From Hyphococcus luteus (lineage in GTDB: Bacteria > Pseudomonadota > Alphaproteobacteria > Caulobacterales > Parvularculaceae): a DNA stretch of 64,000 nt. Below are positions 1 to 12,962 of this stretch, piece by piece (position 1 is the stretch's first letter; each line of letters starts with the position of its first letter). The notes under the pieces are model-generated. The model saw nothing but the letters and a program-made list of their open reading frames with translations. It did no database searches and had not been told where the DNA came from. The translations under genes were made by a program, and so were the position numbers. The stretch lies in assembly GCF_002943565.1 (NCBI RefSeq), contig NZ_PJCH01000015.1, forward strand, positions 124,001 to 188,000, in the 5' to 3' direction.

Positions 1-149
1 ATTCGGGCGCGACCGGCTGCAAGACGTGGGAGCCTTCTCCACTTTCGTTACGATCCTAGCGGATGCAGCCGCTCCCTGCCCTTCATCTTTTGAGGGTGCA
101 TACGGCGTCGATGGTCGATGCCGACAAACATCAAACTCAGGAGGAAATC

Positions 150-437
150 ATGAGTGTCAATGTCAATACTGAAAACGTAACCGATGCCACCGTGCAGGTG
201 CATATCGCCTTCGAAAACGCTTCGCGCAAACAGCGCTACCCTTCAAAGGGTCGGCGGTCGGCATATCACCGCAACCGGACAGGCCTTCGGGGCGCCAAAC
301 CGCGACGCCTGACAACAGGCCGCAACCGCGCTGCGCATCGCTCATCGACCAGGAACGGTCGACATCGCGTGCGCCAGGCAAATAACCAGCAAAAACCGCT
401 GGCCCTGCCCGCGCCCAAACCGAAAAGCCCCGCTTAA
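150..437 (+). CDS. Small basic hypothetical protein
   Basis: A 95-residue reading frame begins at an ATG preceded by a strong AGGAGG ribosome site 7 bases upstream, which is the main reason to list it. The first 30 residues look like ordinary protein (Asn/Thr/Val-rich), then the chain becomes very rich in Arg, Pro and Gln, which may reflect a frameshift near position 250. The stop lies inside the hairpin that terminates the convergent relaxase gene. No family recognised. Confidence 0.4.
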   Translation: MSVNVNTENVTDATVQVHIAFENASRKQRYPSKGRRSAYHRNRTGLRGAKPRRLTTGRNRAAHRSSTRNGRHRVRQANNQQKPLALPAPKPKSPA

Positions 438-446
438 CGCGGGGCC
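423..446 (-). terminator. Rho-independent terminator of the mob operon
   Basis: A 7-bp GC-rich stem (GCCCCGC/GCGGGGC, 427-433 with 439-445) with a 5-base loop is followed on the minus strand by TTTT. It starts directly after the relaxase stop codon. Confidence 0.75.
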
Positions 447-1858
447 TATCGGCCATCGCGGCCCTTGTCTTTGTCACGGGCCTCGCGCAAACGCCGCTTG
501 ATTCGCGCCTTCGCCTCTTCGGTGGAAGGGGCGAATCCCTCTGCCGCCCGTGTATAATCGGATTTCAGCTTTTCTTTCGGCACGCTCTTGCGGGATAAAT
601 CATGCCAGTCGCGGCGGCGCTCAGCGTGCCGCTGCCGCCATTCAAGCCGTAACGCTATTCGTTCTTTTTCCTGTGCTTTGATCAGGCGATCACGCCTTGC
701 CAGATAATCCAGGCTCGCGCGCGCCTTTGAGAGCGAATGCACTTCCTTCATATTCCTGACAATCCCACGTTCTTTGGTCCGCTGTTCCCGCCTGAGCGCG
801 TGTGATTCCGCCTTATGCCTGCGCAGCAGCGTTTGATAGCGGGCGCCTTTGAAGGCGATGGCTTTGAATGCCTCGCCGAGTTTGGCGCGCGTCTCCTGAT
901 TTGGGTGCTTGAAGGATTGCCGCGCCGCCTCAATCGCATTTTGAAACCGGCCGGTGAGTTTTGTTTCTCTGAGTTTGAAAGTCTTGCGCTCACGCACTTG
1001 CCTTTTGTGCAAATCTTCCCATTGCGGCTGATAGGCTTCATGCAGCGTATTCAGCATCCGGGCGCGGGACTTTTCAACGTGCTCTCGGGCGGCCTGTCGT
1101 TCGGATACAAATTTTTGATCAAACCCCCGCCACTCGCTTGCATGTTTGCGGGTGAGGTCGCGGCCTTTTTGCGAAAGCAGCGCATCGGCTGCCCTTTGCC
1201 GGTTGCGCAGCTCTTCTATTGCAGTCCGGTTGTCATTGGCGATCTTGCGCCCTTTTTCGATCTCATCGAACAAACGCCGGTGCTGGTCTTTGGTCCCGCG
1301 CGTATATTCGCCGCGATCTCGCTTTTCATTATTGTGAACGCGCTCCTCGCAATAGATTTTGCCGCGCTCTTTTTCGTAAGCTTCCGCCCATCGGGACAAG
1401 TTCAGCTTTTCCTTGCTCGATGAGAGCATGCGCCCGTCTTCGGGATTGACGCGGTTAAGCAGGATATGGACATGAGGGTGATCGTCATCATTATGGGCGA
1501 TGACAAGCGCCTGATGATCCTGCGCCCCTAACGCCTTGATGGCCCCGCTGGCGGCGCGTTTCATCTGCTCCTGGGTGAGCCTGTCTTTTTCTTCCGGGTG
1601 CCATGACAGCGTAAAATGCAGGACCGGCTTGTCGGATTTACGCCCTGTCGCTTTTATTCCGGCCTGTGCCTTTAACCGTGACTGGTCCATGGCCGTCGCC
1701 GCCATGATCCGCCACGCCATCTGCGGATCATGAACGGCGAGATTGCGCGCCTGGGTCCAGACGACGCGGTCTGAACTGCTCGCCCGGCCTTTGTCGTGAA
1801 GAAGGTAGCGGGCGGCCCCTTTGAAGCTCGATCCTTTTTTATGAAGTTTCGGGACCAT
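446..1858 (-). CDS. MobA-type relaxase
   Basis: Relaxase of the relaxase/mobilization nuclease family: nicks one strand at oriT and leads the DNA during transfer. The 470-residue protein has the metal-binding histidine motif HNDDDHPHVH at about residues 122-131, and a candidate nucleophile Tyr18 in ARYLLHD. The last 250 residues are highly charged and probably helical or coiled coil. The start overlaps the end of the MobC-like gene by 20 bases, the usual mobC-mobA order. It has no primase or helicase domain, so it is a mobilization rather than a large conjugative relaxase. The family is clear; the MOB class (P or Q) is not decided here. Confidence 0.88.
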   Translation of the reverse strand: MVPKLHKKGSSFKGAARYLLHDKGRASSSDRVVWTQARNLAVHDPQMAWRIMAATAMDQSRLKAQAGIKATGRKSDKPVLHFTLSWHPEEKDRLTQEQMKRAASGAIKALGAQDHQALVIAHNDDDHPHVHILLNRVNPEDGRMLSSSKEKLNLSRWAEAYEKERGKIYCEERVHNNEKRDRGEYTRGTKDQHRRLFDEIEKGRKIANDNRTAIEELRNRQRAADALLSQKGRDLTRKHASEWRGFDQKFVSERQAAREHVEKSRARMLNTLHEAYQPQWEDLHKRQVRERKTFKLRETKLTGRFQNAIEAARQSFKHPNQETRAKLGEAFKAIAFKGARYQTLLRRHKAESHALRREQRTKERGIVRNMKEVHSLSKARASLDYLARRDRLIKAQEKERIALRLEWRQRHAERRRDWHDLSRKSVPKEKLKSDYTRAAEGFAPSTEEAKARIKRRLREARDKDKGRDGR

Positions 1859-2186
1859 CGCTCGCCATCACCAATGCAAGGGTTCTTTTCAGCTCAAGCG
1901 CCAGCTCGCCCCAATCCGCACTCTCGTCTCTGCCCCGGTTCACGGCGCGGGCGAGCTGGTTGAGGTTAACGCCGATGCGGTTCAGCTCATTGATCAGCGC
2001 CGGATCGGCGCACTGTGTGCGTGACGCCCTCACCGGCGCTCCAAGCGTCCGCCGGCGTGCAAATTCATGGGGGTCGAGACCGGCCTTGTGGGCTTCTATG
2101 CGGATATGTTCGATCTCGGCTGCCGTGTAGCGCAGATTGAAACGCCGGTCGCGTTTCTCATGGGGCTGCTTTTTCGGGCGCGCCAT
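1839..2186 (-). CDS. mobC: MobC-like relaxosome accessory protein
   Basis: A 115-residue basic protein starting at MARPKK. The order is a basic N-terminus (KKQPHEKRDRRFNLRYTAAE, a ribbon-helix-helix type start) followed by the conserved MobC segment INELNRIGVNLNQLARAVNR near residues 65-84. MobC proteins bind near oriT and help the relaxase open the strands. A longer in-frame start exists at 2435 but the extra segment is low-complexity and crosses the hairpin cluster, so the ATG at 2186 is preferred. It overlaps and is cotranscribed with the relaxase. Confidence 0.82.
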   Translation of the reverse strand: MARPKKQPHEKRDRRFNLRYTAAEIEHIRIEAHKAGLDPHEFARRRTLGAPVRASRTQCADPALINELNRIGVNLNQLARAVNRGRDESADWGELALELKRTLALVMASDGPETS

Positions 2187-2221
2187 GGCCGTCGTCCTTC
2201 CTACTCTACTAATGCGCTGAC

Positions 2222-2338
2222 AGGGTCGGCCCTGATCCACCGGGGGAACGGTGGCGCGCATCCAACCCGCGAAGGGTTGGCCTGGGATTTCACAAGGGCC
2301 GAAAGCCCTTTGATTTGGGTCCGGGGCAAACGCCCCGG
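2222..2338. other. Cluster of five hairpins, oriT candidate
   Basis: The 466-bp gap upstream of mobC (2187-2652) has no convincing gene but contains five perfect short inverted repeats in about 115 bp: AGGG/CCCT (2222-2233), CCACCG/CGGTGG (2237-2254), CCAACCC/GGGTTGG (2262-2280), AAGGGC/GCCCTT (2294-2310) and CCGGGGC/GCCCCGG (2321-2338). Position directly upstream of mobC-relaxase and this density of stem-loops fit an origin of transfer. The rest of the gap (2340-2652) shows nothing recognised. Confidence 0.5.
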
Positions 2339-2652
2339 TCGCGGTCAAACGACGATCCGTTTGTCCATGGTCCGGTTTTGAGGTGGAGAGGGAAGTCTCC
2401 AGGGCCTCAAGCCGGGGTTCGAAGGGGCGTGGCAAACACCCCTCGCCAGATGCGCGTCAGCGCCGTTTTTGGGCACCAAAAACACATCTGGCTACCCGGG
2501 AACGGATGTTATGATGGGGAGTCTTTCTCAGGTGTGAATCCCTGAGCACAACCGTATGCCTACTGATCTTTTTAGCGGCGATTGATTGCGGTTAATCGTG
2601 ATTTACCACGGGAAGTTTAGCAACCCTATGCGCCGCGCTATCAACATGATTT

Positions 2653-3141
2653 TCAAGCAGGCGTGAAGCCGGGCTGGTTCACTTCGGCACCCTGCCCGCC
2701 CAAGAGGCGCGCAACGCGTTCTCTAGTGACGGAAGTGACAATGACCGGCTGCCAGCGGTTGAGCTTAACAATAGGAACTCTGCCCTTCCTCGCCTCGGCT
2801 TCACACTTAGCGAGAATGAGGTCGGCCTCATGCACTCCGCGGATTTTGAGAGGATGCACTTTCCACCAGGGCGCGGTCTGGCGCATGAATTTGCGCCCCG
2901 CTTCCGTGCCGATATTTTCGACCGGCACGCCCTGATTTCTGAGATGGTCGCTAAAGGATGTGGCCAGAACCTTTCGCCGCGCAAATGGCCTGCGAAGACC
3001 GTCGAGCAAGTAATAAAAGCCAGCGTTAACTCTGTCCCTGATTGCCAGCCTTGCAACCGGCGGTTCAACAGAGAACACTATATTGTTGGCAACAATGAAT
3101 ATTTTGAATGTTTCGCGGCCTCTATCTTTGGATTTCGTCAT
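2653..3141 (-). CDS. Hypothetical island protein
   Basis: A 162-residue basic protein, ATG start preceded by an AAGGAG-type site. It has no signal peptide or membrane segment. The only notable feature is a C-terminal stretch (PVIVTSVTRERVARLLGG) that looks like a strand-helix unit. I do not recognise the family. It is the first gene upstream of the hairpin cluster, on the same strand as mobC-mobA. Confidence 0.6.
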   Translation of the reverse strand: MTKSKDRGRETFKIFIVANNIVFSVEPPVARLAIRDRVNAGFYYLLDGLRRPFARRKVLATSFSDHLRNQGVPVENIGTEAGRKFMRQTAPWWKVHPLKIRGVHEADLILAKCEAEARKGRVPIVKLNRWQPVIVTSVTRERVARLLGGQGAEVNQPGFTPA

Positions 3142-3288
3142 TTGCAGGCAACTCCTTACTAAGTGGCGCCCCTAGCACCGGCAAGGATATTCCCGCGAAA
3201 CCGTTAACAATGTATTATTCACCTACATTCGTGGTTTTTATAAAATAATCCATGACTTAGCTGGCACGATTTTTCGGTAAAATTTTAG

Positions 3289-3984
3289 CTATTTACGACG
3301 GTAGCTCTTAGCACGCTGCAAATTAGCCATTTCCCTGGCAATGCGCTCGGCAGAAATCACGCAGCCGCTCTCATCATGAATCTGTATGTTGCTCAACGCT
3401 GCTAATCGACGATCTGTGATCTCCGATTTCATGGGCAATGGTAAATCCACCGGCAGCTCATTGTCTTTCAACCAGTTGTACAATGCCTGATAGAGACCAC
3501 GATCAAGTTGGCGAATATGGGCTTTCGAGAGTCCCTTGCCAATAAAATCACTATACACTCGCTTTATAAAATCAGGCGCCTTCTCGCTACGGTCTTTCCT
3601 ATCCCTATATAGCTCTGGCGCTCTTTTTGGCAGCGGGTTTTGATTCATCATCAAGGAAACGGCATAAATCTTTAATGCATCTTCCACCGAAATGCTTTCA
3701 AATATCTCTGACAGGCCGTCTAGAATCTCTTTCTTGGTCTTATCGTCTTTTTTCTTATTTTTTGTATTCAATATTTCTTTTTCTAATTGTTCAATTCTTT
3801 TAAGTTGTTCATCAATATACTGATTATTTTCCGAAATATCAAATTCTGAACACTTTTTCTGTGTGCCCTCATTCTCCAACGAGGCCTCAAGCCTTTCGAC
3901 AGACCCATATGGTCCAAGCCGCCTTGCCTTACGACCTTTTTGAGGCTTTCCCTGTTCAGCTTTTTTTCGCGGCTTTGCAGACAT
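3289..3984 (-). CDS. Hypothetical Lys-rich coiled-coil protein
   Basis: 231 residues, start MSAKPRKKAEQ. The N-terminal 25 residues are strongly basic; residues about 45-95 (IDEQLKRIEQLEKEILNTKN and on) form a probable coiled coil; the remainder is helical with no known motif. The gene is clearly AT-richer than its neighbours, especially around 3700-3800, which suggests a different origin. Family not recognised. Confidence 0.6.
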   Translation of the reverse strand: MSAKPRKKAEQGKPQKGRKARRLGPYGSVERLEASLENEGTQKKCSEFDISENNQYIDEQLKRIEQLEKEILNTKNKKKDDKTKKEILDGLSEIFESISVEDALKIYAVSLMMNQNPLPKRAPELYRDRKDRSEKAPDFIKRVYSDFIGKGLSKAHIRQLDRGLYQALYNWLKDNELPVDLPLPMKSEITDRRLAALSNIQIHDESGCVISAERIAREMANLQRAKSYRRK

Positions 3985-4086
3985 TGTGCTTCTCAGAATC
4001 TATTATTCGCCCGGTTACTACTGTTCGGCACAGCTTGACCAGCCCTTAACCTGAGGGATATTCGAAGGTTGCAGTGCTGTCGGCGG

Positions 4087-4410
4087 TCATGATGAACCGC
4101 CAATCTCGCGCAGATATTCGATGCAGCAATCATTGGATTCAGTCAGTTCCTCGGCGAAGCCTTCGGCGCCGCATTCGGGGCAGGAATGGAACTGCTCCAG
4201 CGTGTCGCCGTTCATCATGGCTACATTGAAGTCTTCGTCGGTGAGGAAGACATAGCCGCTGTGCATGTTCATCATGACGGTTACGCCATCGCCCAGGAAG
4301 TCCGGCGGGCTTTCGCAATAGGCCGCCAGCAATCTGGCGGCCATTTTGAGTTCACGAAAGCCGAACCGTGACAGGTCGGTCGTGACGATATCGGGAACGC
4401 GGCGGCTCAT
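4087..4410 (-). CDS. Hypothetical protein with CPECG motif
   Basis: 107 residues. A CPECG pair near residue 77 and a CC near residue 94 could bind zinc. The middle part resembles small acidic island proteins of unknown role. The ATG overlaps the stop of the upstream gene in an ATGA arrangement, so the two are translationally coupled. Function not recognised. Confidence 0.62.
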   Translation of the reverse strand: MSRRVPDIVTTDLSRFGFRELKMAARLLAAYCESPPDFLGDGVTVMMNMHSGYVFLTDEDFNVAMMNGDTLEQFHSCPECGAEGFAEELTESNDCCIEYLREIGGSS

Positions 4411-4670
4411 GATGCGGCCCGCTGTTCGCGAAGGGCGTGCGCTTCGGTGTAGGCGCGGTCCGCCAGTTTCGAGAGGCGCAACAGCTCGGCCCCGGAAAAG
4501 CTTGCGGCGTCGGCGTAATTGCCGTCCTTGTCTTTGTAGGTGCGGGAAAACGTCACCGAGTAGAAAGCGCCGTCTTCTTTTTCATTCCGCCAGATCGCAG
4601 CTTTTAACGCGCCATCGGTCAGGGTCATTGCCGGTTTTTGGGCCGGTTTATTGTTAATATTTGTCGTCAT
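4407..4670 (-). CDS. Conserved small island protein
   Basis: 87 residues. The core (LKAAIWRNEKEDGAFYSVTF, then SRTYKDKDGNY and ELLRLSKLADRAY) matches a type of small protein I associate with plasmids and islands of alphaproteobacteria, usually annotated as hypothetical. It has a predicted beta-sheet front and a helical tail; possibly a nucleic-acid-binding fold, but that is a guess. First gene of a two-gene unit with the CPECG protein; divergent from the coupling-protein gene. Confidence 0.65.
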   Translation of the reverse strand: MTTNINNKPAQKPAMTLTDGALKAAIWRNEKEDGAFYSVTFSRTYKDKDGNYADAASFSGAELLRLSKLADRAYTEAHALREQRAAS

Positions 4671-4883
4671 TTGTCGTTCCTTTCGTTAATTCGCGCTGAA
4701 CCATTTCAGCCCGATGAGGAACGAAACGCCGGGCGCGCATTCTCAGACCTGTCAAAGACGCAGCCGAAGGACCGTATTGATCAGGGATGAGCGCGTCTGG
4801 CGCCCTCATCGATACGGCCTGAAAAAGGCTTCAGCGCATAACCGGATTCAGGAACGAAGGGCGGCAAACGCTAACCATATCTG

Positions 4884-4912
4884 TTGACCCTGTCTTAAGG
4901 CGCGTTTTTCTA
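4884..4912 (+). promoter_or_regulatory. Possible promoter of the coupling-protein gene
   Basis: TTGACC, 17-base spacer, TTTCTA, ending about 38 bases before the start codon. It lies in the 280-bp divergent gap 4671-4950, which also holds a GCTGAA/TTCAGC hairpin at 4695-4710 and no gene. Only the -35 box is good. Confidence 0.35.
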
Positions 4913-4950
4913 AAGTTTGATCGGATGGCAAGTAAAAGAGGCGATTTGAC

Positions 4951-6399
4951 TTGCTCGATATTTTTCCGCGAGGCGTAGAAAACAAGGCGAATCCGAACGC
5001 CTTTCCTGACGCCGCCTGGGCGAGCCCGGCGACGCTCACAGCGCATGCAAAATGGAAATTCGAACCCGGCGCGATCCTTGCGGGCCGGATCGGCAATACG
5101 CCGCTGGGCCTTACCGATGACCGGCACCTGATCACCGTGGCCGGGTCGCGCGCAGGCAAAGGCCGCTCGGCGATCATTCCGAATATGTGCCTTTATCCGG
5201 GCTCGATTGTCGCTATCGATCCCAAAGGCGATCTTGCGACCGTCACAGCCGCCAGGCGCGGCAATGGGTCGAACGATTCAGGGGGCATGGGCCAGGATGT
5301 GTTCGTGCTCGATCCCTTTGAATCGGCGCAGGGCGCCGCCAGCGATTACCGGGCCTCATTCAATCCGCTGGATATGATCGATGCGGACGGGCCATATGGC
5401 CGGGATGATGCGGCCCTGCTGGCCGATGCGCTGATTATCCCGTCAAAGGTGGAACAGCACTGGACCGATGCAGCGCGATTGCTCCTGACCGGGGTAATCC
5501 TGCATATCTGCGCTACCTGTCAGGGAGAAGAGCGCAGCCTGATCGCCGTTCGCAAGGCGCTGACCGCCGATATGGACGGCTTTGCCGAACTGCTCGCCGA
5601 AATGTCCGTCTCCGAAACCGCAGACGGCGTTGTCGCGCGGGCGGCCAATACGCTGATCGCCATGTCCGATAAGGAGCGCGCCGGAGTCCTGTCCACGGCC
5701 ATTGTCCAGACCGGGTTTCTGGACTCCCCGGCGATGCGCAGCGTCTTACAGCGTTCGGATTTCATGCTTGGCGATCTTAAAGAGAAACCGACAAGCGTTT
5801 ATCTCAGCCTTCCGGCCGGACGCATGGGCACGCATAGCCGGTGGCTGCGCCTGATGATCGCGCTGACCATCGAAGCGATGGAGCGCAACCGCACTAAACC
5901 AAGCCATCCGGTTCTGATCATCATGGATGAGTTTCATGCCCTGGGGCAGATGAACGTGATTGAACGGGCGGCGGGCCTTATTGCGGGCTTTGGCGTGCGG
6001 TTATGGCCGATCCTGCAGGATATATCGCAGCTCAAAGCGCTGTACCCGCAAAGCTGGGAAACATTCCTCGGCAATGCGGGCTTGAGCCAGTGGTTCGGCA
6101 TTAATGATCTCACGACGCTTGAATATCTTTCAAAGCGTCTCGGGCAGACGACGCTGGATGTCGTCAGCCAGGGCGAGATTTCCAAAGGACAGGCGATGAA
6201 CGGCTTTAGCGGCAAGAGCCTGTCCAAGCAGGTCGTCTCCCTGATGAGCGCGGAGGAAATCAGCCGGTATTTTTCCCGGCAATCGGGGCGGCAATTGTTG
6301 CTTTATCCTGGCTCCGACCCGATTGCGGTTGCGCGGATCGATTATGATTCAGATCCGCTGCTCACCGGAAAGTTCGACGCCGATCCCAATTATTCTTGA
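4951..6399 (+). CDS. VirD4/TraG-like coupling ATPase, no membrane anchor
   Basis: Type IV coupling protein family: ATPase that brings the relaxase-DNA complex to the secretion channel. Walker A is GSRAGKGRS (residues 65-73), Walker B is VLIIMDE (321-327), and the region WPILQDISQLKALY follows as expected. The 482-residue chain is shorter than typical VirD4 (over 600) because the N-terminal transmembrane pair is absent. The TTG start is used since it is the first in-frame start after an AAGAGG site. It is followed by a small two-TM protein gene 20 bases downstream. Confidence 0.85.
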   Translation: MLDIFPRGVENKANPNAFPDAAWASPATLTAHAKWKFEPGAILAGRIGNTPLGLTDDRHLITVAGSRAGKGRSAIIPNMCLYPGSIVAIDPKGDLATVTAARRGNGSNDSGGMGQDVFVLDPFESAQGAASDYRASFNPLDMIDADGPYGRDDAALLADALIIPSKVEQHWTDAARLLLTGVILHICATCQGEERSLIAVRKALTADMDGFAELLAEMSVSETADGVVARAANTLIAMSDKERAGVLSTAIVQTGFLDSPAMRSVLQRSDFMLGDLKEKPTSVYLSLPAGRMGTHSRWLRLMIALTIEAMERNRTKPSHPVLIIMDEFHALGQMNVIERAAGLIAGFGVRLWPILQDISQLKALYPQSWETFLGNAGLSQWFGINDLTTLEYLSKRLGQTTLDVVSQGEISKGQAMNGFSGKSLSKQVVSLMSAEEISRYFSRQSGRQLLLYPGSDPIAVARIDYDSDPLLTGKFDADPNYS

Positions 6400-6419
6400 G
6401 GCAAGTATGAGATAGGCCG

Positions 6420-6974
6420 ATGTTGAGTATCAGCGAAAAAGCCGACTGGAAGACGCCCGGCCTCAAAGGCCGGATGAAAAACGGCATCTATAAAGGCAAG
6501 CTGTATACGGCGATGCCATGGCGGCTGCTCACAGCCGGGAAGAATGCAGTGATCGCGAGTATATTGATCACAGCCCTGTTGATGTGGGCCGCTGATGAAG
6601 GTTTCGAAATTCTAGATACGATATATGTCTTTATCGGCGTGTTCGTGCTTCTCGCTTACCCGTTTTTTGTGGTTTTCGACCCCGGCAAGAAGATCAAGAT
6701 CACGCCGCAACACCTTCATGTCGGTTCAAAGCGATATGATTTGCACAGTTGCGGTCGGTTCTTTCCGCTTAAGACAGGGAAAGGCCGCCTTGATGACATC
6801 ATCACATTTGAATACGGCAACAATCAAAAACGAATCCGTATTCGCAATGGCTGGCGGCATACGGAAAACATCGTCCAGAAACTCAACGATTCCGTAAAGC
6901 TAGTCTGCGCCCATCGACAGACCCAACAAACCGCTTTGCGAAGCCGTCTGGAAACCCGCTCCGCCACGTTTTAA
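6420..6974 (+). CDS. Hypothetical two-TM membrane protein
   Basis: 184 residues with two adjacent membrane segments (about residues 43-60 and 66-84), then a small soluble domain that is beta-rich (KIKITPQHLHVGSKRYDL) and resembles a PH-like fold, though this is only a visual impression. It sits 20 bases after the TM-less coupling ATPase, in the same operon. It could anchor the ATPase at the membrane (inference only). Confidence 0.6.
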   Translation: MLSISEKADWKTPGLKGRMKNGIYKGKLYTAMPWRLLTAGKNAVIASILITALLMWAADEGFEILDTIYVFIGVFVLLAYPFFVVFDPGKKIKITPQHLHVGSKRYDLHSCGRFFPLKTGKGRLDDIITFEYGNNQKRIRIRNGWRHTENIVQKLNDSVKLVCAHRQTQQTALRSRLETRSATF

Positions 6975-6991
6975 ACCCAAAGGAGGCGCCC

Positions 6992-7228
6992 ATGCCCCCG
7001 CACTGGACGGAAACAAACAAGCATAAGGCCAAAGAAGCGTTTGAAACCGCGCCAAGGGAAGTGCGACAGCATCACAACCGACAAGCGCCCGAACGCCCGC
7101 CACAGCCGCAATTAAAGCCCAAAGGCCCATTACGGGATGCTGTTGATCGTCAGGTGCGGGAAAAAGCGGAAGCCATCAAGGCTAAGTTTACTTATGACCG
7201 CCAAAAAGAGCTTGCCAGGATAAAATAA
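6992..7228 (+). CDS. Small charged hypothetical protein
   Basis: 78 residues, preceded by a near-perfect AAAGGAGG ribosome site. Composition is Lys/Glu/Gln/Pro-rich with a helical end (VREKAEAIKAKFTYDRQKEL). The third gene in line after the coupling ATPase. Such proteins occur near relaxases and coupling proteins, but no function is assigned. Confidence 0.6.
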   Translation: MPPHWTETNKHKAKEAFETAPREVRQHHNRQAPERPPQPQLKPKGPLRDAVDRQVREKAEAIKAKFTYDRQKELARIK

Positions 7229-7240
7229 CCGATTCAGAAG

Positions 7241-8569
7241 CTACCCATTTGACAGTGGTCTTGGCTTTAAATGGTTTGTGTTTGTCCATAACGGATGCTG
7301 CACTTCCTTTAAATCAATAAGCGGATGAATACCCCAAGGTATTTCATTGCTGTTTTTGGGTATAGGAATTTCAGGCAGGCTGTATTCTTGGCGCACTTCA
7401 TTGAATGTGTGAATCCACTCGTCATAACGGTCTTTAATCATTTCAACCGGCGGGAATTCATGCGAGTTCCAGAATTTTCTATGCCAAAGAGCCCGAGCCT
7501 CGTCTACATCAAACACAAAATCTATATCTTCGTGGGATACATCCGCCAGTGTTCTAATACGGGGTTGTGAATTTGTAGCGTTATGATCCTGACCTTTTTT
7601 CTTTTTAAATAGACTTATCCCAAACATGCTTTTAACTCTTCTACTTATTTTTTCCTGATGCGGCACAAATGCTTCCGCCTCACCATCAATATAAACTTTT
7701 TTCTGGTAGATCACGTCAAACACGCGATCATTTTTTTGTTTGTATGCTGCGTAATAAACAGGCATTCGAAAATCTTGCTTCGCAAATGGCCTATACTCAA
7801 ATATGAAACGCAGAGCATTAACCAGCGCCCTGTATGGAAATCCCAGCCACACACGACTAAAGTTAGTATACGGAAATTTTCCAAAAGATGCAAACTTTTC
7901 AAGCGCTTTAGTGCGAGTCTGGACTTCTGGCCAAAGCTCTGTGAGTTCTTTCAATCTATGCATAACATCCCTTAGCTGGTGGCGCAAAACATCCGGATCG
8001 TTATTGCCCGGCGCGCCTAAGCCATCAAAGCCAGCTATCACTATATCCGTGTGGGATTTTATTGCACGCAAACATGCGGCGTATTTGTAAAAGAAGAATG
8101 CTGAGCGTTTTCCAAATGCCCGCGAATTTAGAGAAAGATATAAATCGATATCGCTTATGGAGGCGGCAAGCTTTTTTAGGTCCGGGTAATTTTTGCGAAT
8201 TAACTTCGACACACGGATGCTTAGGGCCGCGCCCTGAGTTTGGTTGGAAAGTAATGAAACAGAAGGCCGCCTATTAGAATACACGAGCGCAACGAATCCA
8301 GCCGATGCTTCCGCGATATTGCCTGTCCAATTTACTTGATCTTGCGATATGTGCCAGCAATGCAATGAAACAAGTCTTTGCTGTCTTTTTGCTGCCCCCC
8401 AGTTGTAAAATGCGACTCCAAAACTGACCAGCCCTGAAATCAATAATGCATTAATCCAAAATTCTGCACTTGTTCCCGTAGCGCACGCACCGTCGATCAC
8501 CCATTCCCAAGTAAATGGAATGAGTTGCTCGCCTTCTGGGCGAACTTCGCAATAGTCTAAGATCGACAT
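7241..8569 (-). CDS. Hypothetical membrane-anchored protein
   Basis: About 442 residues from MSILDY; an upstream start at 8605 is possible. One clear membrane segment lies at about residues 37-57 (FWINALLISGLVSFGVAFYN). The rest is a large cytoplasmic domain rich in aromatic and basic residues without a motif I know. The base composition is much lower in GC than the core genes. It is convergent with the preceding small gene. It could be island cargo such as a defence or exclusion factor; nothing in the sequence proves this. Confidence 0.6.
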   Translation of the reverse strand: MSILDYCEVRPEGEQLIPFTWEWVIDGACATGTSAEFWINALLISGLVSFGVAFYNWGAAKRQQRLVSLHCWHISQDQVNWTGNIAEASAGFVALVYSNRRPSVSLLSNQTQGAALSIRVSKLIRKNYPDLKKLAASISDIDLYLSLNSRAFGKRSAFFFYKYAACLRAIKSHTDIVIAGFDGLGAPGNNDPDVLRHQLRDVMHRLKELTELWPEVQTRTKALEKFASFGKFPYTNFSRVWLGFPYRALVNALRFIFEYRPFAKQDFRMPVYYAAYKQKNDRVFDVIYQKKVYIDGEAEAFVPHQEKISRRVKSMFGISLFKKKKGQDHNATNSQPRIRTLADVSHEDIDFVFDVDEARALWHRKFWNSHEFPPVEMIKDRYDEWIHTFNEVRQEYSLPEIPIPKNSNEIPWGIHPLIDLKEVQHPLWTNTNHLKPRPLSNG

Positions 8570-8698
8570 AAAACCCCACCGCTTGAATGGGGTATAGATA
8601 ATCAAAATTATTACTACCCAGCAATATTCAATTTATTCCCTATTTAAAGGAGAGGAATGTTAAGGTATTGAATTACCATCTGGAATAACGCCCACCTA

Positions 8699-8965
8699 TC
8701 AGCCGAAAACAATGGAATATGAATACAGCCCGCTCAGGATCGCGGGAATGAACGCAAAGATGAAAGTCAGGGCCTTGTTATTGCCCCAAAAGCCTTCGCC
8801 TTTGAACAGCCAATAGATAATCGTGACAAGACCGCCGGGCAGGAAAAGCGCGATGTGAAGCAGCATCGGCGGCAGCTCCGAGGGGATAAAGCTCAGGAAC
8901 ATTGCAGCAAGAGACGTAATGAGAACGAGAAACCAGGTAACTCTGTAGAACATAACTTTACCCAA
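8699..8965 (-). CDS. Small three-TM membrane protein
   Basis: 88 residues, almost entirely hydrophobic, with three probable membrane helices (about residues 10-27, 32-52 and 65-86). No family recognised. The next ATG at 8953 is an alternative start. The 246-bp stretch between it and the resolvase (8966-9211) holds no convincing gene and may contain the resolvase recombination site. Confidence 0.5.
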   Translation of the reverse strand: MGKVMFYRVTWFLVLITSLAAMFLSFIPSELPPMLLHIALFLPGGLVTIIYWLFKGEGFWGNNKALTFIFAFIPAILSGLYSYSIVFG

Positions 8966-9211
8966 GATATTTTCGGCAATGATCGACGTGAAAAAGGTGA
9001 TAGCGCTGACTTATCGACGCGCTACAGCGGACCATCGGATGTGCGTTGTCGTCTCACGCACTTATCCACTGGTAAAAGGCTCCCTTTATAAGATCGTCCT
9101 TGGGGACCTCAGAAGATTGATAGATACTGGAGATCAATTGAGGGATAGGCGTAACGCAAAAGGGAGGCTTTTTGGGCGTCAACGCTCAAATGAATATTTG
9201 AAGGGAAAAGA

Positions 9212-9754
9212 ATGCTGGTCGGTTACGCGCGGGTTTCAACGATAGATCAGAATTTGAATTTGCAGCTTGATGCGCTCAAACGTGCAGGATGTGCCACGGT
9301 CTATCAGGATGAAGGCGTATCCGGTGCGAAAGCTAAGCGCCCCGGCCTGAGCAAGGCATTGAGACGACTTAAAAAGGGTGATGTCCTGGTAGTGTGGCGA
9401 CTGGACCGGCTGGGTCGATCCATGCGGCACCTGATTGAGCTGACCACCATGTTTGAAGCCAAAGGGGTTGGCTTTCGTTCCCTCTCTGATGCGATTGATA
9501 CATCTACGGCAACCGGCAAGCTGTTCTTTCATGTCACGGGGGCCTTTGCCGAGTTTGAACGCAATCTGATCTCAGAACGTACCAAGGCAGGCATGGCGGC
9601 AGCGAAGGCGCGCGGCGTGAAAATGGGACGACCGAGGAAGCTGACGCGCCAGCAACAGATAGCGCTTGCGGAATTTGATAGTGATGCGCTTGATCAAGCA
9701 GCAAAAAACTTGGGGGTGGATGAGAAGCCAGGCGACGACAAGACTATACAGTAG
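9212..9754 (+). CDS. Serine recombinase (resolvase/invertase), damaged C-terminus
   Basis: The N-terminal catalytic domain is intact: YARVSTIDQ with Ser9 as nucleophile, WRLDRLGRS with the conserved arginines, and the long helix ending ISERTKAGMAAAKARG. The DNA-binding tail begins normally (GRPRKLTRQQ) but ends GVDEKPGDDKTIQ instead of the expected Ser-Arg-Thr-Leu-Tyr-Arg helix. In another frame over 9725-9760 the sequence reads ATTRLYS, which suggests a frameshift that destroyed the last helix. Members of this family resolve transposon cointegrates or plasmid multimers. Confidence 0.88.
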   Translation: MLVGYARVSTIDQNLNLQLDALKRAGCATVYQDEGVSGAKAKRPGLSKALRRLKKGDVLVVWRLDRLGRSMRHLIELTTMFEAKGVGFRSLSDAIDTSTATGKLFFHVTGAFAEFERNLISERTKAGMAAAKARGVKMGRPRKLTRQQQIALAEFDSDALDQAAKNLGVDEKPGDDKTIQ

Positions 9755-9779
9755 AATTTGGCTGTGTTGATGTTGGCTT

Positions 9780-11012
9780 ATGAAGCACAACAGCGTCGTA
9801 CTCACTCGTAAAGAGCTTTATGACCTCGTCTGGTCAAAGCCAATGGTCAAAGTGGCGAGTGACTTTAACATCTCCGATGTTGCCATGAAAAAGGTATGCA
9901 AGAAGAATAATATTCCCGTCCCTCCCCGTGGCTATTGGCGGCGCGTTGAAACAGGCAAGCCTGTAAAACAAATTAAATTGCCCAAGGTTGAGAATGCACC
10001 CTCTATTGCTATCGACATCAGGCAACGTGTGGAGGAGATTGCAAAAGAATTTATGACGGAAGAAATAACACAGAAAATTTTCAACGAGTCAGAGCCGGAA
10101 TCAAAGATTCTTGTGCCTCATTTTCTGACCCATCCTCATAAAATAACAACAATCACAAAACACCTGTTAAAGGCTGCCAAGGAAGATGAATATGGCGCGA
10201 TCAAGTGTTTGTCAGAAGAAGCGTTTTATGTACGTATAGGGCCAGCTTCCACGGACCGCGTACTACGCATCATAGATACTTTTTTGAAAGCATGCGAAGA
10301 ACGTGGATTTACTATTCGCGCGGGCGAGAAGCGAGACAACAATCGATATATAGATCATGCGAAACTGATCGTTGATGGAGAGGCGCTGGGTTTTTCCATT
10401 GAAGAAACCATCAGGCGCAGACCGCATAAATTGACCGAAAAGGAGCTGGCGCATCAAAGAAAGAACAATCGCAGTTGGTCTGACTATTCTTATCTGCACA
10501 TCCCAAATTATGATTTTTTTCCAACGGGAAAGCTTACGCTCAAAATTGACGGACATTATGGCTCCCGGCTTCGCTCTACATGGAATGATACAAAACGCCA
10601 ATGGATAGAGGATCGTTTAAACGAGGTGATTGTCGCGTTGCTGGAGGCTTCTGCCTGGATAAAACAGCGACGAAAAAAGCAAAAAGAAAAGGAACAACGT
10701 CATCAAAAGGAATTGGCCAGACGGGCGGAGATACGAAAACGCTATGATGAAGAGTGTGCAGCAATTTCGCAATTGGAAACAGAAGCGACAAACTGGCGGC
10801 AGTCGGAAAATATACGCGCCTATGCCGCAGCATTTGAGTTAAGGGCTTCAGAGAACGGCCAATTAACAGAGGCGCAAAGAGAGTGGCTGCTGTGGGCACG
10901 CGAACATACAGACAGACTTGATCCACTTTGTGAAACAAAACCATCATCTCTTGATACAAGTGAAGAAGATATGCGGCCTATCTCTATCTGGGAAATGGCG
11001 GATGAGGAATGA
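9780..11012 (+). CDS. Hypothetical protein with HTH-like N-terminus
   Basis: 410 residues. Residues 8-60 (LTRKELYDLVWSKPM, then ISDVAMKKVCKKNNIPVPPR) form a helix-turn-helix-like unit seen in a family of long hypothetical proteins of mobile elements. Residues about 270-350 are a highly charged coiled coil (KQRRKKQKEKEQRHQKELARR). It starts 25 bases after the resolvase and its stop lies only 3 bases before the tRNA-Leu 3' end on the other strand. AT-richer than core genes. Function unknown. Confidence 0.65.
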   Translation: MKHNSVVLTRKELYDLVWSKPMVKVASDFNISDVAMKKVCKKNNIPVPPRGYWRRVETGKPVKQIKLPKVENAPSIAIDIRQRVEEIAKEFMTEEITQKIFNESEPESKILVPHFLTHPHKITTITKHLLKAAKEDEYGAIKCLSEEAFYVRIGPASTDRVLRIIDTFLKACEERGFTIRAGEKRDNNRYIDHAKLIVDGEALGFSIEETIRRRPHKLTEKELAHQRKNNRSWSDYSYLHIPNYDFFPTGKLTLKIDGHYGSRLRSTWNDTKRQWIEDRLNEVIVALLEASAWIKQRRKKQKEKEQRHQKELARRAEIRKRYDEECAAISQLETEATNWRQSENIRAYAAAFELRASENGQLTEAQREWLLWAREHTDRLDPLCETKPSSLDTSEEDMRPISIWEMADEE

Positions 11013-11067
11013 AAATGGTGCGGGCGGGGGGACTCGAACCCCCACGGGCAAATGCCCTACGGATTTT

Positions 11068-11328
11068 CATACGCACTACGGCTTTCGCCGCCCTGCCCTT
11101 ATGCACGGCGCATAAGAGCAAGTTCGTGGTCTGGACTATACCTTCACCGTAGCCAGGTTCCTGGCCTTAGGCGCTGCCCGTCTAGTCTCTACACCTTCCC
11201 CATTGAATGTTCATTCAACAGGGCTTGGCTCGGGATCGGCAAGGTCGGATACGTCATCCGCCGTAGCTTTCCCCGAATTTGAGCAGTTCTACTCCCGCCG
11301 TTTCCGGCGGGGCACTCAAAGGTCGCTT
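11068..11328 (-). ncRNA. Self-splicing group I intron in tRNA-Leu(UAA)
   Basis: 261 nt, ends in G, with no reading frame for a homing endonuclease. P1 pairs exon ACUU with intron GAGU, giving the conserved U-G wobble at the 5' splice site. P2 is a GC-rich stem closed by a GAAA tetraloop. The core elements are visible: P (AATTCGGGGAAAGC), Q (ATCCCGAGCCAAG), R (GTGTAGAGACTAGACGG) and S (AAGGTATAGTCC), in that order. These match the wording of the cyanobacterial tRNA-Leu introns (subgroup IC3). Confidence 0.93.
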
Positions 11329-11363
11329 AAGTCCGTTGCGTCTACCGGTTCCGCCACGCCCGC
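11327..11363 (-). repeat. att-like repeat, copy 1 (inside tRNA-Leu)
   Basis: 37 bp covering the tRNA-Leu 5' exon, matched by 12773-12809 with two mismatches, in direct orientation. The two copies bracket the integrase. Confidence 0.75.
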
Positions 11364-11372
11364 ATTGTTATT

Positions 11373-11402
11373 AGATAAACAGAATACAGCCTTGAATTGC
11401 AA
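11373..11402 (-). promoter_or_regulatory. Candidate promoter of tRNA-Leu
   Basis: On the minus strand TTGCAA, 18-base spacer, TTATCT, ending 10 bases before the tRNA 5' end. It lies in the AT-rich 48-bp gap between the integrase stop and the tRNA, so the tRNA can be expressed independently of host sequence to the right. Confidence 0.5.
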
Positions 11403-11411
11403 CAGCTAATT

Positions 11412-12638
11412 TTATTCTGCCAACAGACTCTCGGCAGTGATGGGTTCGCTCTTTTTGCTTTTACGCGGGCGGCGCACATTGATAGCGGCGGTATCGAGGC
11501 TGGTCTTGATGTGGGAAGCGTAATAGGTCTCGATCATTTCCACGCTGGTGCGGCAGTTCTTGGCGATCTGATAAATGTCGGCCCCTTCCATGAGGCGCAG
11601 ACAGATATAGGTGTGGCGAAGGCTGTAGGCCGTGCGCCTTTGGCCTTCTCGGTCGATTTTCAAGCCTTCCTCCTCAAGGATGTTATTGAAGAGCTGTCGC
11701 GGGAAAACCGGGAATAAAAGATCCATGGGTTTTGGCTTGTTGCGCTCCACAAGACGCTGGAACGGGCGCACCGCCCCCGTCATGCTCTTGCAATAGCCGA
11801 CCCCGCGTTTACCGCGCACTTCTATTTCCAGGATCGTTTCCTCGGTATCCTCGTCTTCAACTATCGTCACGTCACGATATTGAAGGCTCAAGGCTTCGTC
11901 CGGCCTTAGGCCCGTATTGGCCATAAACAGGACGAAGTCATGGAGTTGTTCGCAGTTGTGCTTCCAACGCGGCTTTGGTGGGTTTTTGATGCGACGGCGC
12001 GTCGCTTCGTAGAGCTGTTTGTATTCCTCCGGCGAGAACCATGCCCTGCGTTTGATTTTTCCCGACGTTTTGTAAGGCGTCGACAAATCCGGCAGGTGCG
12101 TCAGCCAGCCATGGCGCATGGCTGTTTTTAAAACCTGACGCAGCGTGAAGATTTCCTGATGCAGCGTGCTGCGCGCGGGCGGACCGTAGTTCTTCGGATT
12201 GCCGTCATCGTCTTTGCGGTTGTACCGGGGAACCGAATTTTTCTGTCGGAACACACGGTATTCCTGAACCATACCGGCAGTTATTTCGGAGAGACCTTTG
12301 TCTCCGAAATACGGAATGAGATAATTTCTGAGCCTTCGTTTTGTGTTGTCGATGTAGACTGGGCTGCGCTCTCCGAGCGTAATAACCTCGTACTCTTCCA
12401 GGAATTTAGCAGCGGCCTGTTTGAACGTTTTTTCGTGCTTGAGCTGGCCCATCACTTTCTTGCCGCGCAGGCCGAGATACCAGTCTTCTGCAAAGTCTTT
12501 CGCGCGCGAAAGAGAGTCTTCTTTCGTGCTCGTTCTCCAATTTCGTCCGTCCAGGAACGTTGAGCACTGCCAGTAGCGGCTGTCGCCACGGCGATAGACG
12601 TAAACTTTGCCTCCCATGATTTTGTGCTTTTCCGTCAA
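11412..12638 (-). CDS. int: Tyrosine site-specific integrase
   Basis: 408-residue phage-type integrase. An N-terminal arm-binding region and SAM-like core-binding domain (about 70-175) precede the catalytic domain, with Arg245 (NTGLRPDEAL), the YSLRHTY box (Arg341) and Tyr372 as likely nucleophile in MIETYY. Two canonical histidines are replaced (Tyr338 for the first His of HxxR; Cys362 where LGH is usual), as in some subfamilies. The gene lies between the two tRNA-Leu repeats, convergent with nothing, reading toward the tRNA. The position suggests it targets the tRNA-Leu anticodon-arm region. Confidence 0.92.
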   Translation of the reverse strand: MTEKHKIMGGKVYVYRRGDSRYWQCSTFLDGRNWRTSTKEDSLSRAKDFAEDWYLGLRGKKVMGQLKHEKTFKQAAAKFLEEYEVITLGERSPVYIDNTKRRLRNYLIPYFGDKGLSEITAGMVQEYRVFRQKNSVPRYNRKDDDGNPKNYGPPARSTLHQEIFTLRQVLKTAMRHGWLTHLPDLSTPYKTSGKIKRRAWFSPEEYKQLYEATRRRIKNPPKPRWKHNCEQLHDFVLFMANTGLRPDEALSLQYRDVTIVEDEDTEETILEIEVRGKRGVGYCKSMTGAVRPFQRLVERNKPKPMDLLFPVFPRQLFNNILEEEGLKIDREGQRRTAYSLRHTYICLRLMEGADIYQIAKNCRTSVEMIETYYASHIKTSLDTAAINVRRPRKSKKSEPITAESLLAE

Positions 12639-12673
12639 ACCGGCGCCTCCAACTCACACGCACACCGTGAAAG

Positions 12674-12691
12674 TGTGTAACAACTGTGTAA
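12674..12691 (+). repeat. TGTGTAA direct repeats, possible integrase arm sites
   Basis: Two TGTGTAA copies spaced 11 bp start to start, 36 bases upstream of the integrase start and about 80 bp from the attachment repeat. This fits arm-type integrase binding sites or an autoregulatory site. Confidence 0.3.
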
Positions 12692-12772
12692 GTAGCATTC
12701 AGGAGGTTAAATTTCAATAAACGACTGTTTTATAAGGGGTTTTTGTTGTGGATAAGTGGGAAACTAGGGGTT

Positions 12773-12809
12773 TTAAGTCTGTTGCGTCTACCGGTTCCGC
12801 CACGTCCGC
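12773..12809 (-). pseudogene. Broken tRNA-Leu 5' half (att copy 2)
   Basis: Minus-strand 5' half of a tRNA-Leu from the acceptor strand GCGGACG through the D arm to CUUAA of the anticodon loop; after CTTAAAA homology stops. It differs from the intact tRNA at two bases, both in stems (acceptor A for G, anticodon stem A for G). No 3' half follows. It lies 79 bp downstream (on its strand) of tRNA-Gly, so the two probably formed one transcript before the insertion. Confidence 0.85.
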
Positions 12810-12888: not shown

Positions 12889-12962
12889 TGGAGCGGGTAG
12901 CGGGAATCGAACCCGCATCTTCAGCTTGGAAGGCTGTGGCTCTACCATTGAGCTATACCCGC
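12889..12962 (-). tRNA. tRNA-Gly(UCC)
   Basis: 74 nt with encoded CCA. Acceptor GCGGGTA pairs with TACCCGC, T arm CGGGTTCGATTCCCG is standard, and the anticodon loop CUUCCAA gives anticodon UCC. The first anticodon-stem pair reads A-A, a small mismatch. First gene of host type to the right of the island. Confidence 0.93.

Follow-up and report, generated by a model that had tools for sequence, protein, structure and literature searches.

A mobile island of Hyphococcus luteus carries a putative rescue gene for tRNA-Leu(UAA) whose integration core is interrupted by a group I intron

The window, by which the whole 64,000-nucleotide stretch of Hyphococcus luteus DNA under analysis is meant, contains one end of a mobile island that, as the sequence shows, has cut the host's intronless tRNA-Leu(UAA) gene at the anticodon loop, and whose cargo includes a complete tRNA-Leu(UAA) gene with a group I intron. 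The best explanation of the whole, which we consider fairly probable, is tRNA-dependent integration with a rescue tRNA that splices itself and has its intron within the att core. Under this proposal a tyrosine integrase would recombine at a 10-bp sequence, AGACTTAAAA, that covers the anticodon loop of the host tRNA-Leu(UAA) gene and a part of its stem. Integration splits the host gene without rebuilding it, and the element would therefore bring its own complete tRNA-Leu(UAA), placed just downstream of the integrase gene. The rescue copy holds its intron between U34 and A35, within the core sequence, and its transcript would splice itself to yield a normal tRNA. Because the intron interrupts the att core, the DNA of the rescue copy is probably no integrase target and should not be cut by the island's own integrase or that of a relative. 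This shielding step, taken alone, is about an even bet.

The first-pass annotation placed a group I intron in tRNA-Leu(UAA) between U34 and A35, and this was borne out. The Rfam covariance model RF00028 matched window positions 11338-11112 (minus strand) with 61.6 bits against a gathering score of 50, and the match covers the whole model (positions 1-253); no other RF00028 match was present in the same genome at an E value of 0.001. ARAGORN found no tRNA at 11016-11363 when introns were disallowed, and returned tRNA-Leu(taa) with a 261-nt intron at the U34/A35 junction when they were allowed. The full-length rescue gene occupies 348 nt (window 11016-11363), and removal of the intron leaves 87 nt that fold as a cloverleaf. 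The intron has a P1 with a U.G splice pair, a GAAA-capped P2 and a terminal G, and it contains no ORF of at least 90 amino acids. The parts of the gene are:

11329..11363, minus strand: 5' exon of the rescue tRNA-Leu(UAA), ending ...GGACUU (U34); from ARAGORN with introns and an alignment of 51 relatives
11068..11328, minus strand: group I intron, 261 nt; from RF00028, the own-family model, covariation and the ORF list
11016..11067, minus strand: 3' exon of the rescue tRNA-Leu(UAA), AAAAUCC... to CCA; from ARAGORN and the spliced fold

A promoter scan gave no more signal than expected by chance. The fold was examined in an alignment of 51 introns, from which L158 (which contains N) and rows that duplicated a locus were left out; alignment A2 left out L085 (plastid-like) and the plasmid loci L178 and L179. 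The splice pair U-1.G (columns 8 and 24) was invariant in 51 of 51 introns, as was the G preceding the 3' exon, a base that the motif finder itself required. In 28 of the 65 predicted pairs both sides had changed with pairing kept in at least one sequence. The aligned introns are evidently under selection to fold, and the window intron presumably splices in vivo. A model built from this intron family gave the window intron 220 bits, which is a match by construction, the window row being inside the model.

A direct repeat search revealed a 37-nt second copy of the 5' half of the tRNA, 1446 nt away and 95% identical. This stretch (window 12809-12771) differs from the rescue gene at two positions and continues as GACTTAAAA, an intronless anticodon loop; the two differences and the uninterrupted GACTTAAAA rule it out as a copy of the rescue gene. 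It is the 5' half of the host gene, and lies beside a second host tRNA:

12771..12809, minus strand: 5' half of the host intronless tRNA-Leu(UAA), attL, with the att core AGACTTAAAA at 12780-12771; from the direct repeat and the sequence
12889..12962, minus strand: host tRNA-Gly(UCC), neighbour of the split tRNA-Leu; the same neighbour occurs in two same-genus genomes with unsplit tRNA-Leu

The host 5' half begins GCGGACG, which demands a 3' half ending CGTCCGC. Such a half was found in the genome with zero mismatches at C7:115251-115276, on the same strand and 21.5 kb away, the only other match being the rescue gene, with one mismatch. The attR core AGACTTAAAA and the host 3' half together span C7:115304-115247, 8.7 kb past the left edge of the window. 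The overlap of attL and attR is the 10-bp AGACTTAAAA, and the two host halves, when joined, give an 87-nt tRNA-Leu(taa). Neither junction is a complete tRNA; i.e., the host tRNA was not rebuilt at either. Two copies of the tRNA-Leu 5' half were found in the genome and none further within three mismatches, and no second complete tRNA-Leu(UAA) was present among all 41 tRNA matches in the draft assembly (99.17% complete, 16 contigs), in a gap of which another could sit. As no other complete tRNA-Leu(UAA) was found, the decoding rules imply that the cell probably relies on the intron-bearing copy to read UUA codons, and would need it. The unsplit site is seen in relatives: at two of six same-genus loci (G420 and G425) an intronless tRNA-Leu(UAA) stands directly behind tRNA-Gly(UCC), with homologous DNA on the tRNA-Gly side. 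At the other four the tRNA-Leu is located elsewhere, and none of the six gave a match to the window host's flank on the far side of the 3' half.

These junctions bear on the reading that the gene is an ordinary chromosomal tRNA gene with a cyanobacterial-type intron, which an integrase adjoins by chance. The type and site of the intron are indeed those of cyanobacterial tRNA-Leu(UAA) (in part, the available text of PMC4033280). However, host halves that match each other at both ends of the island, the unsplit site of relatives and the recurrence of the design in dozens of genomes all speak against it. As a full account it is refuted by the two att junctions, and we give it next to no credence.

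The island measures 21.5 kb and has a G+C content of 0.521, against 0.605-0.625 in its flanks. On the minus strand the order is host tRNA-Gly, host 5' half (attL), integrase, rescue tRNA with intron, cargo and host 3' half (attR). Its features within the window are:

1..12780, no strand: part of the island in the window; from the att junctions and G+C
11412..12638, minus strand: tyrosine integrase, 48 nt upstream of the rescue tRNA; Phage_int_SAM_3 over cut-off
446..1858, minus strand: relaxase, MobA/VirD2-like; Pfam PF03432
1839..2435, minus strand: mobilisation protein, NikA-like/MobC; Pfam
4951..6399, plus strand: type IV coupling protein, VirD4/TraG-like; Pfam PF02534
9212..9754, plus strand: serine resolvase; Pfam PF00239
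9780..11012, plus strand: 410-aa protein adjoining the 3' end of the rescue tRNA; ORF

The Pfam match of the integrase and the att junctions uphold the earlier claim of a mobile island with an adjacent integrase. That reading was thus right on the intron gene, the island and the integrase, and incomplete on the rescue role, the split host gene and the recurrence described below. The integrase also scored 21.7 bits against Phage_integrase, below the Pfam cut-off of 27.1, and it is presumably the enzyme that acted. An integrase, a relaxase, a NikA/MobC protein and a VirD4-like coupling protein lie between attL and attR, and the island is probably an integrative mobilizable element. The domains found in the 16 island proteins scanned were integrase, resolvase, relaxase, NikA/MobC, coupling protein, HipA, TIR, SLOG, MazG_C, Nmad2 and UDG. 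A temperate phage or phage origin was considered and set aside: the integrase matched none of 50,697 phage records, and the scanned domains are of integrase, mobilisation, resolvase and cargo types. Among solved structures there was no match to the integrases at E 0.01. The 410-aa protein had a weak match to RWP-RK, under cut-off, and no PADLOC match. In the left part of the island (L048:11974-19887), HipA, UDG, MazG_C, Nmad2, ThsB-like TIR, TIR and SLOG proteins are clustered, possibly as defence or toxin-antitoxin (addiction) cargo.

A similar mode of integration, tRNA-dependent lysogeny, is described for actinobacteriophages in the available text of Guerrero-Bustamante and Hatfull 2024 (PMC10865867): a tyrosine integrase acts at a core of about 10 bp, the host tRNA is left unrebuilt and a cognate tRNA is carried by the phage. 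In phage Gaia, according to the same text, tRNA-Leu-CAA lies downstream of the integrase (PMC10865867). The island has the same type of integrase, a short core in a host tRNA gene that was not rebuilt, and a carried replacement, the tRNA-Leu(UAA) that is the sole complete one found in the draft genome. Unlike the phage cases, the elements considered here are islands, found in Alphaproteobacteria, Acidobacteria and others, and the rescue tRNA has its core interrupted by a group I intron; the portion of PMC10865867 available mentions none in the phage rescue tRNAs. The element would seem to work like tRNA-dependent lysogeny, but in islands and with a ribozyme added. No intron-bearing rescue tRNA in a bacterial element was found described in the titles and abstract openings listed from the open-licence literature.

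Recurrence was examined with a profile made from the integrases of four intron-bearing elements, which was run against genome contigs and gave 350 relatives, the best 80 of which were kept. Among these best 80 of 350, 36 have an intron-bearing tRNA-Leu(UAA), a count that is no unbiased rate because the scan was seeded with intron-bearing elements. In 34 of the best 80 this gene shares the strand of the integrase and lies just downstream of it, and in two (L125 and L143) it lies farther on and on the opposite strand. A tRNA-Leu(UAA) without an intron occurs in one of the best 80 (L124), where there is no remnant. The remainder of the best 80 comprises 14 with tRNA-Leu(CAA) downstream (13 without an intron and one, L152, with), two with tRNA-Leu(UAG), both intronless, 13 whose integrase has an intact tRNA upstream of it, the arrangement of standard 3'-end integration, seven cut by a contig end and seven without a tRNA nearby. 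The one of these last seven that was read (L165) has a CAA-type remnant, and no rescue was seen. By their record labels, mostly those of metagenome bins, the elements with an intron-bearing tRNA-Leu(UAA) belong to Alphaproteobacteria and Acidobacteria, and the intronless types occur also in Gammaproteobacteria, Planctomycetota and Verrucomicrobiota.

The split host gene recurs with the element. A script found an intronless 5' remnant in 35 of 39 islands with an intron-bearing tRNA-Leu(UAA), namely the 34 above, the window's own and those of G009, G100, G384 and G369. Intronless 3' halves were sought in 37 genomes that carry the element, and 27 of these had one or more. Two, L221 (G501) and L216 (G513), read as complete intronless tRNA-Leu(UAA) genes on other contigs and are not island ends; both genomes are metagenome bins and may be mixed. 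In 19 islands a distance of 6 to 109 kb separates a 5' remnant from a 3' half on the same strand (16 on one contig, together with the window's own, G009 and G100; L130 was left out, its remnant being unrecognised, and the first of two candidate ends was used for L158). The acceptor stems of the two host halves form 7/7 pairs in 17 of these 19 islands and 6/7 with a G-T in the other two. Halves swapped between islands gave a mean of 3.87 pairs, with 22 of 342 combinations reaching 7/7, and 0 of 20000 permutations reached the observed pairing sum. The matched acceptor stems therefore show that the halves were once one gene and that the islands inserted there.

Some loci showed other states of the site. 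On one contig (L158, G526:C59) three tRNA-Leu(UAA) 3' halves lie at 86.8, 100.5 and 155.1 kb, which suggests tandem islands at one site. In a member of the Terriglobia (G562, L320:1390-1800) the intronless tRNA-Leu(UAA) is intact, and immediately behind it lies a decayed intron-bearing copy that lacks its first bases; it looks as though a rescue gene had rotted after the host gene was restored. At L321 and L315 (Terriglobia) and L239 (G140), a remnant or att-like core stands 80-210 nt before an intron-bearing tRNA-Leu, with no window-type integrase between.

The intron is kept in 41 of the 42 islands with tRNA-Leu(UAA), the exception being L124, the one without a remnant; the 42 are the 39 in the integrase tree together with L124 and with L125 and L143, which are labelled 'none' on the tree. 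On this tree, a quick one with SH-aLRT support alone, the label for an intron-bearing tRNA-Leu(UAA) changes 16 times, at least nine of which are forced by well-supported branches. Intron and integrase distances gave a Mantel r of 0.12 (658 of 9999 permutations were as high), or 0.19 without Acidobacteria (204 of 9999). The correlation being weak, intron and integrase were not simply inherited together, and no co-inheritance is claimed. The 16 label changes and the weak distance correlation mean that these elements shuffle their modules: target, rescue tRNA and integrase. In the intron tree, 10 of 48 inner branches are well supported and the bootstrap is not settled, so no direction of transfer is claimed.

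Introns at this exact position are known from cyanobacterial and plastid tRNA-Leu(UAA), and the proteobacterial tRNA introns from tRNA-Arg(CCU) and tRNA-Ile(CAU). The first-pass annotation called introns at this site classically cyanobacterial or plastid, but a survey of alphaproteobacterial genomes showed that they are not exceptional outside cyanobacteria: exon and core motifs located an intron in tRNA-Leu(UAA) in 16 of 385 (own genome included, one on a plastid-like contig), and such introns were found in Acidobacteria as well. RF00028 gave 34 matches in 31 of the 385 genomes, own included; 30 of the 34 were given loci, L095 and L097 were read later, and G048:C55 and G176:C104 were left out. 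Six of the 16 genomes have an integrase relative beside the tRNA, one of these being truncated; G140 has a host remnant and no integrase; in G079 the gene is on the plastid-like contig, where 20 kb hold 13 tRNA genes; and in eight no window-type integrase was present in the stretch fetched, other integrases being possible in some. By an exact pattern, 12 of 14 intron-bearing genomes had no intronless 3' half, and the two matches were island ends; the island end of G009 came up once the pattern was relaxed. As a control, a near-identical pattern found an intronless 3' half in 84 of 120 same-order genomes, the match in the window's own genome being the island end. Several intron-containing tRNA-Phe and tRNA-Ser genes reported by ARAGORN were rejected, as their exons showed them to be misread tRNA-Leu(UAA).

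The intron may persist in these islands because it would block the integrase. If the intron were taken out, 35 of 35 rescue genes would have the sequence GACTTAAAA, most of whose ACTT and AAAA the finder itself required. In six islands (L088, L131, L163, L170, L171 and L175) an intronless rescue gene would equal the host site over 12 nt, which comprise the loop and the stem's 5' strand; over those 12 nt the intron is the sole separator of rescue gene and target. Retention in 41 of 42 islands amid reshuffling suits selection for the intron, and it also suits one good cassette that was passed around.

It is rather unlikely, in our judgement, that the intron is instead a hitchhiker: that the rescue gene came from an intron-bearing lineage, and that the intron splices well and is harmless, with no advantage to the element. 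Such an origin would sit well with the eight of 16 class-level genomes that have an intron-bearing tRNA-Leu(UAA) and no window-type integrase nearby, with the weak Mantel correlation and with the intronless rescue genes of the other types (13 of 14 tRNA-Leu(CAA) and 2 of 2 tRNA-Leu(UAG) relatives), which show that an intron is not required in such a system. It fits less well with the 41 of 42 tRNA-Leu(UAA) islands that keep the intron despite 16 label changes on the integrase tree, or with the introns found also in the CAA-type rescue of L152 and the tRNA-Lys of phage Daredevil. Against shielding stand the CAA-type relatives, most of which lack an intron: in some of them the anticodon stem is unlike that of the host site, but the intronless rescue genes of L122 and L128 retain the 11-mer GATTCAAAATC of the host remnant. 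Stem mismatches did not differ significantly between tRNA-Leu(UAA) rescues with an intron (mean 1.29, n = 35, of which L103 was mis-matched) and tRNA-Leu(CAA) rescues without (mean 2.22, n = 9; p 0.058). At L152:11395-11715, in a relative at a CAA-type site, the anticodon loop of the rescue tRNA-Leu(CAA) seems to be broken one base sooner, after U33, by the group I intron.

The intron might also guard the rescue gene against homologous recombination or gene conversion with the host halves, and not against the integrase. Rescue gene and remnant do share 37 nt at 95% identity, within 1.5 kb and in direct orientation. The shared stretch is short, however, and the intron leaves the shared 5' exon untouched, so that recombination over the 5' halves would be unhindered; we regard this alternative as quite improbable. 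Shielding from the integrase would give a bacterial tRNA intron a concrete job: an element may destroy an essential tRNA gene and yet supply an integrase-proof copy. It would also join two observations that had been unconnected, namely that group I introns occur here and there in the anticodon loops of tRNA genes and that anticodon loops are also targets of integrases.

Randau and Soell are said to have viewed archaeal tRNA introns, in 2008, as protection of att sites. To this archaeal hypothesis the present proposal would add a counterpart in bacteria, with a ribozyme in the guarding role. In the available part of Sugahara et al. 2012 (PMC3293823), an archaeal intron at a tRNA att site is borne by a mobile element and is proposed to stop further integration. 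The two cases are alike in that an intron at a tRNA att site is brought by a mobile element (PMC3293823, as available). The archaeal introns are spliced by protein, occur in one population and accompany a host tRNA rebuilt via attP, according to the same portion of PMC3293823, whereas those described here are bacterial ribozymes in a separate, full rescue copy and occur in many elements. IStrons, as outlined in the accessible text of PMC4227781, consist of a group I intron joined to an insertion sequence and make the insertion harmless; there the intron is part of the mobile unit, whereas here it sits in a cargo tRNA and does not enclose the element. Group I introns in cyanobacterial tRNA-Leu(UAA) are documented in the available text of PMC4033280. 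With these and the plastid and proteobacterial tRNA introns the window intron shares its class and, in tRNA-Leu(UAA), its gene, but theirs are treated as host genes, whereas here the gene is element cargo and the host copy is broken.

The kinship of the introns was examined with a covariance model of the tRNA-Leu introns. Five alphaproteobacterial tRNA-Arg(CCU) introns (L097, L095, L245, L246 and L247) scored 120-202 bits and are therefore close kin of the tRNA-Leu introns; none of these five loci has a window-type integrase near. The single plastid-like tRNA-Leu intron scored 44 bits, and kinship with cyanobacterial introns was not established by this comparison, which includes no cyanobacterial tRNA intron. 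An intron-like core at L236 was rejected, as it lies outside a tRNA. When viral contigs were searched with an approximate Anabaena core, 1 and 53 contigs were found, with a tRNA-Leu intron in none.

In the phage collection, a short intron-core match led to Gordonia phage Daredevil (NC_048021.1), in which ARAGORN finds an unannotated tRNA-Lys(UUU) with a 238-nt intron (L308:3840-4151) and exons that fold as a tRNA. An intact attP-like core, GGACTTTTAATCC, starts 168 nt before the tRNA-Lys, and the 3' exon is 87.5% identical over 40 nt to the tRNA-Lys region of Fionnbharth-type phages. The intron scored 159.8 bits with our own intron model, and RF00028 was silent at E 0.01. The HMM of the window integrase family did not recognise the Daredevil integrase, whose BLAST similarity to the family is weak (31% over 128 aa, E 1e-5), and the phage is possibly a convergent case. 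Daredevil forms clear plaques (PMC10865867, available text), and this is no argument for a functional rescue tRNA. The tRNA was probably overlooked because of its intron. Since runs of a tRNA finder without introns miss the window gene, such islands and the Daredevil tRNA can go unseen.

Taken jointly, these cases allow a wider reading, which we put forward tentatively and would not back at even chances: bacterial tRNA group I introns at large may be att-site shields that were spread by integrative elements, arose more than once and were left behind as a host gene after the element decayed. Their origins would lie in islands at tRNA-Leu(UAA), once at tRNA-Leu(CAA), and in Daredevil at tRNA-Lys(UUU), and the scattered stand-alone tRNA introns of proteobacteria would be explained. 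The introns of tmRNA genes are all in the T loop, as stated in the available text of PMC11915505; the T loop is another integrase subsite, and the tmRNA introns would be a further case.

Intron-bearing tRNA genes were also observed on plasmids. The clinical plasmid pCTX-M3 (NC_004464.2, L178:4993-5291) and the plasmid of L179 carry an unannotated tRNA-Leu(UAA) with a 213-nt group I intron, near aac(3)-IId. The motif finder reads the pCTX-M3 gene at full length, and ARAGORN misnames it; its intron scored 214 bits with our own model and 36.8 bits with Rfam, below the cut-off. The window gene matches 1273 of 72,556 plasmid records, with about 70% coverage for the Enterobacteriaceae ones among the matches listed, and at least 80% of the pCTX-M3 copy is present in 624 of 5,426 E. 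coli genomes. A window-type integrase was not recognised near the pCTX-M3 locus, and a small ORF upstream of the plasmid gene, considered as a piece of an integrase, was not recognised as such. Lastly, an uncultured large phage (LR756511.1, L309:1368-2154) has a tRNA-Leu(UAA) whose intron, by ARAGORN, measures about 700 nt; by eye this intron seems to hold an HNH-type endonuclease frame, and it is a possible mobile relative of the introns described here.
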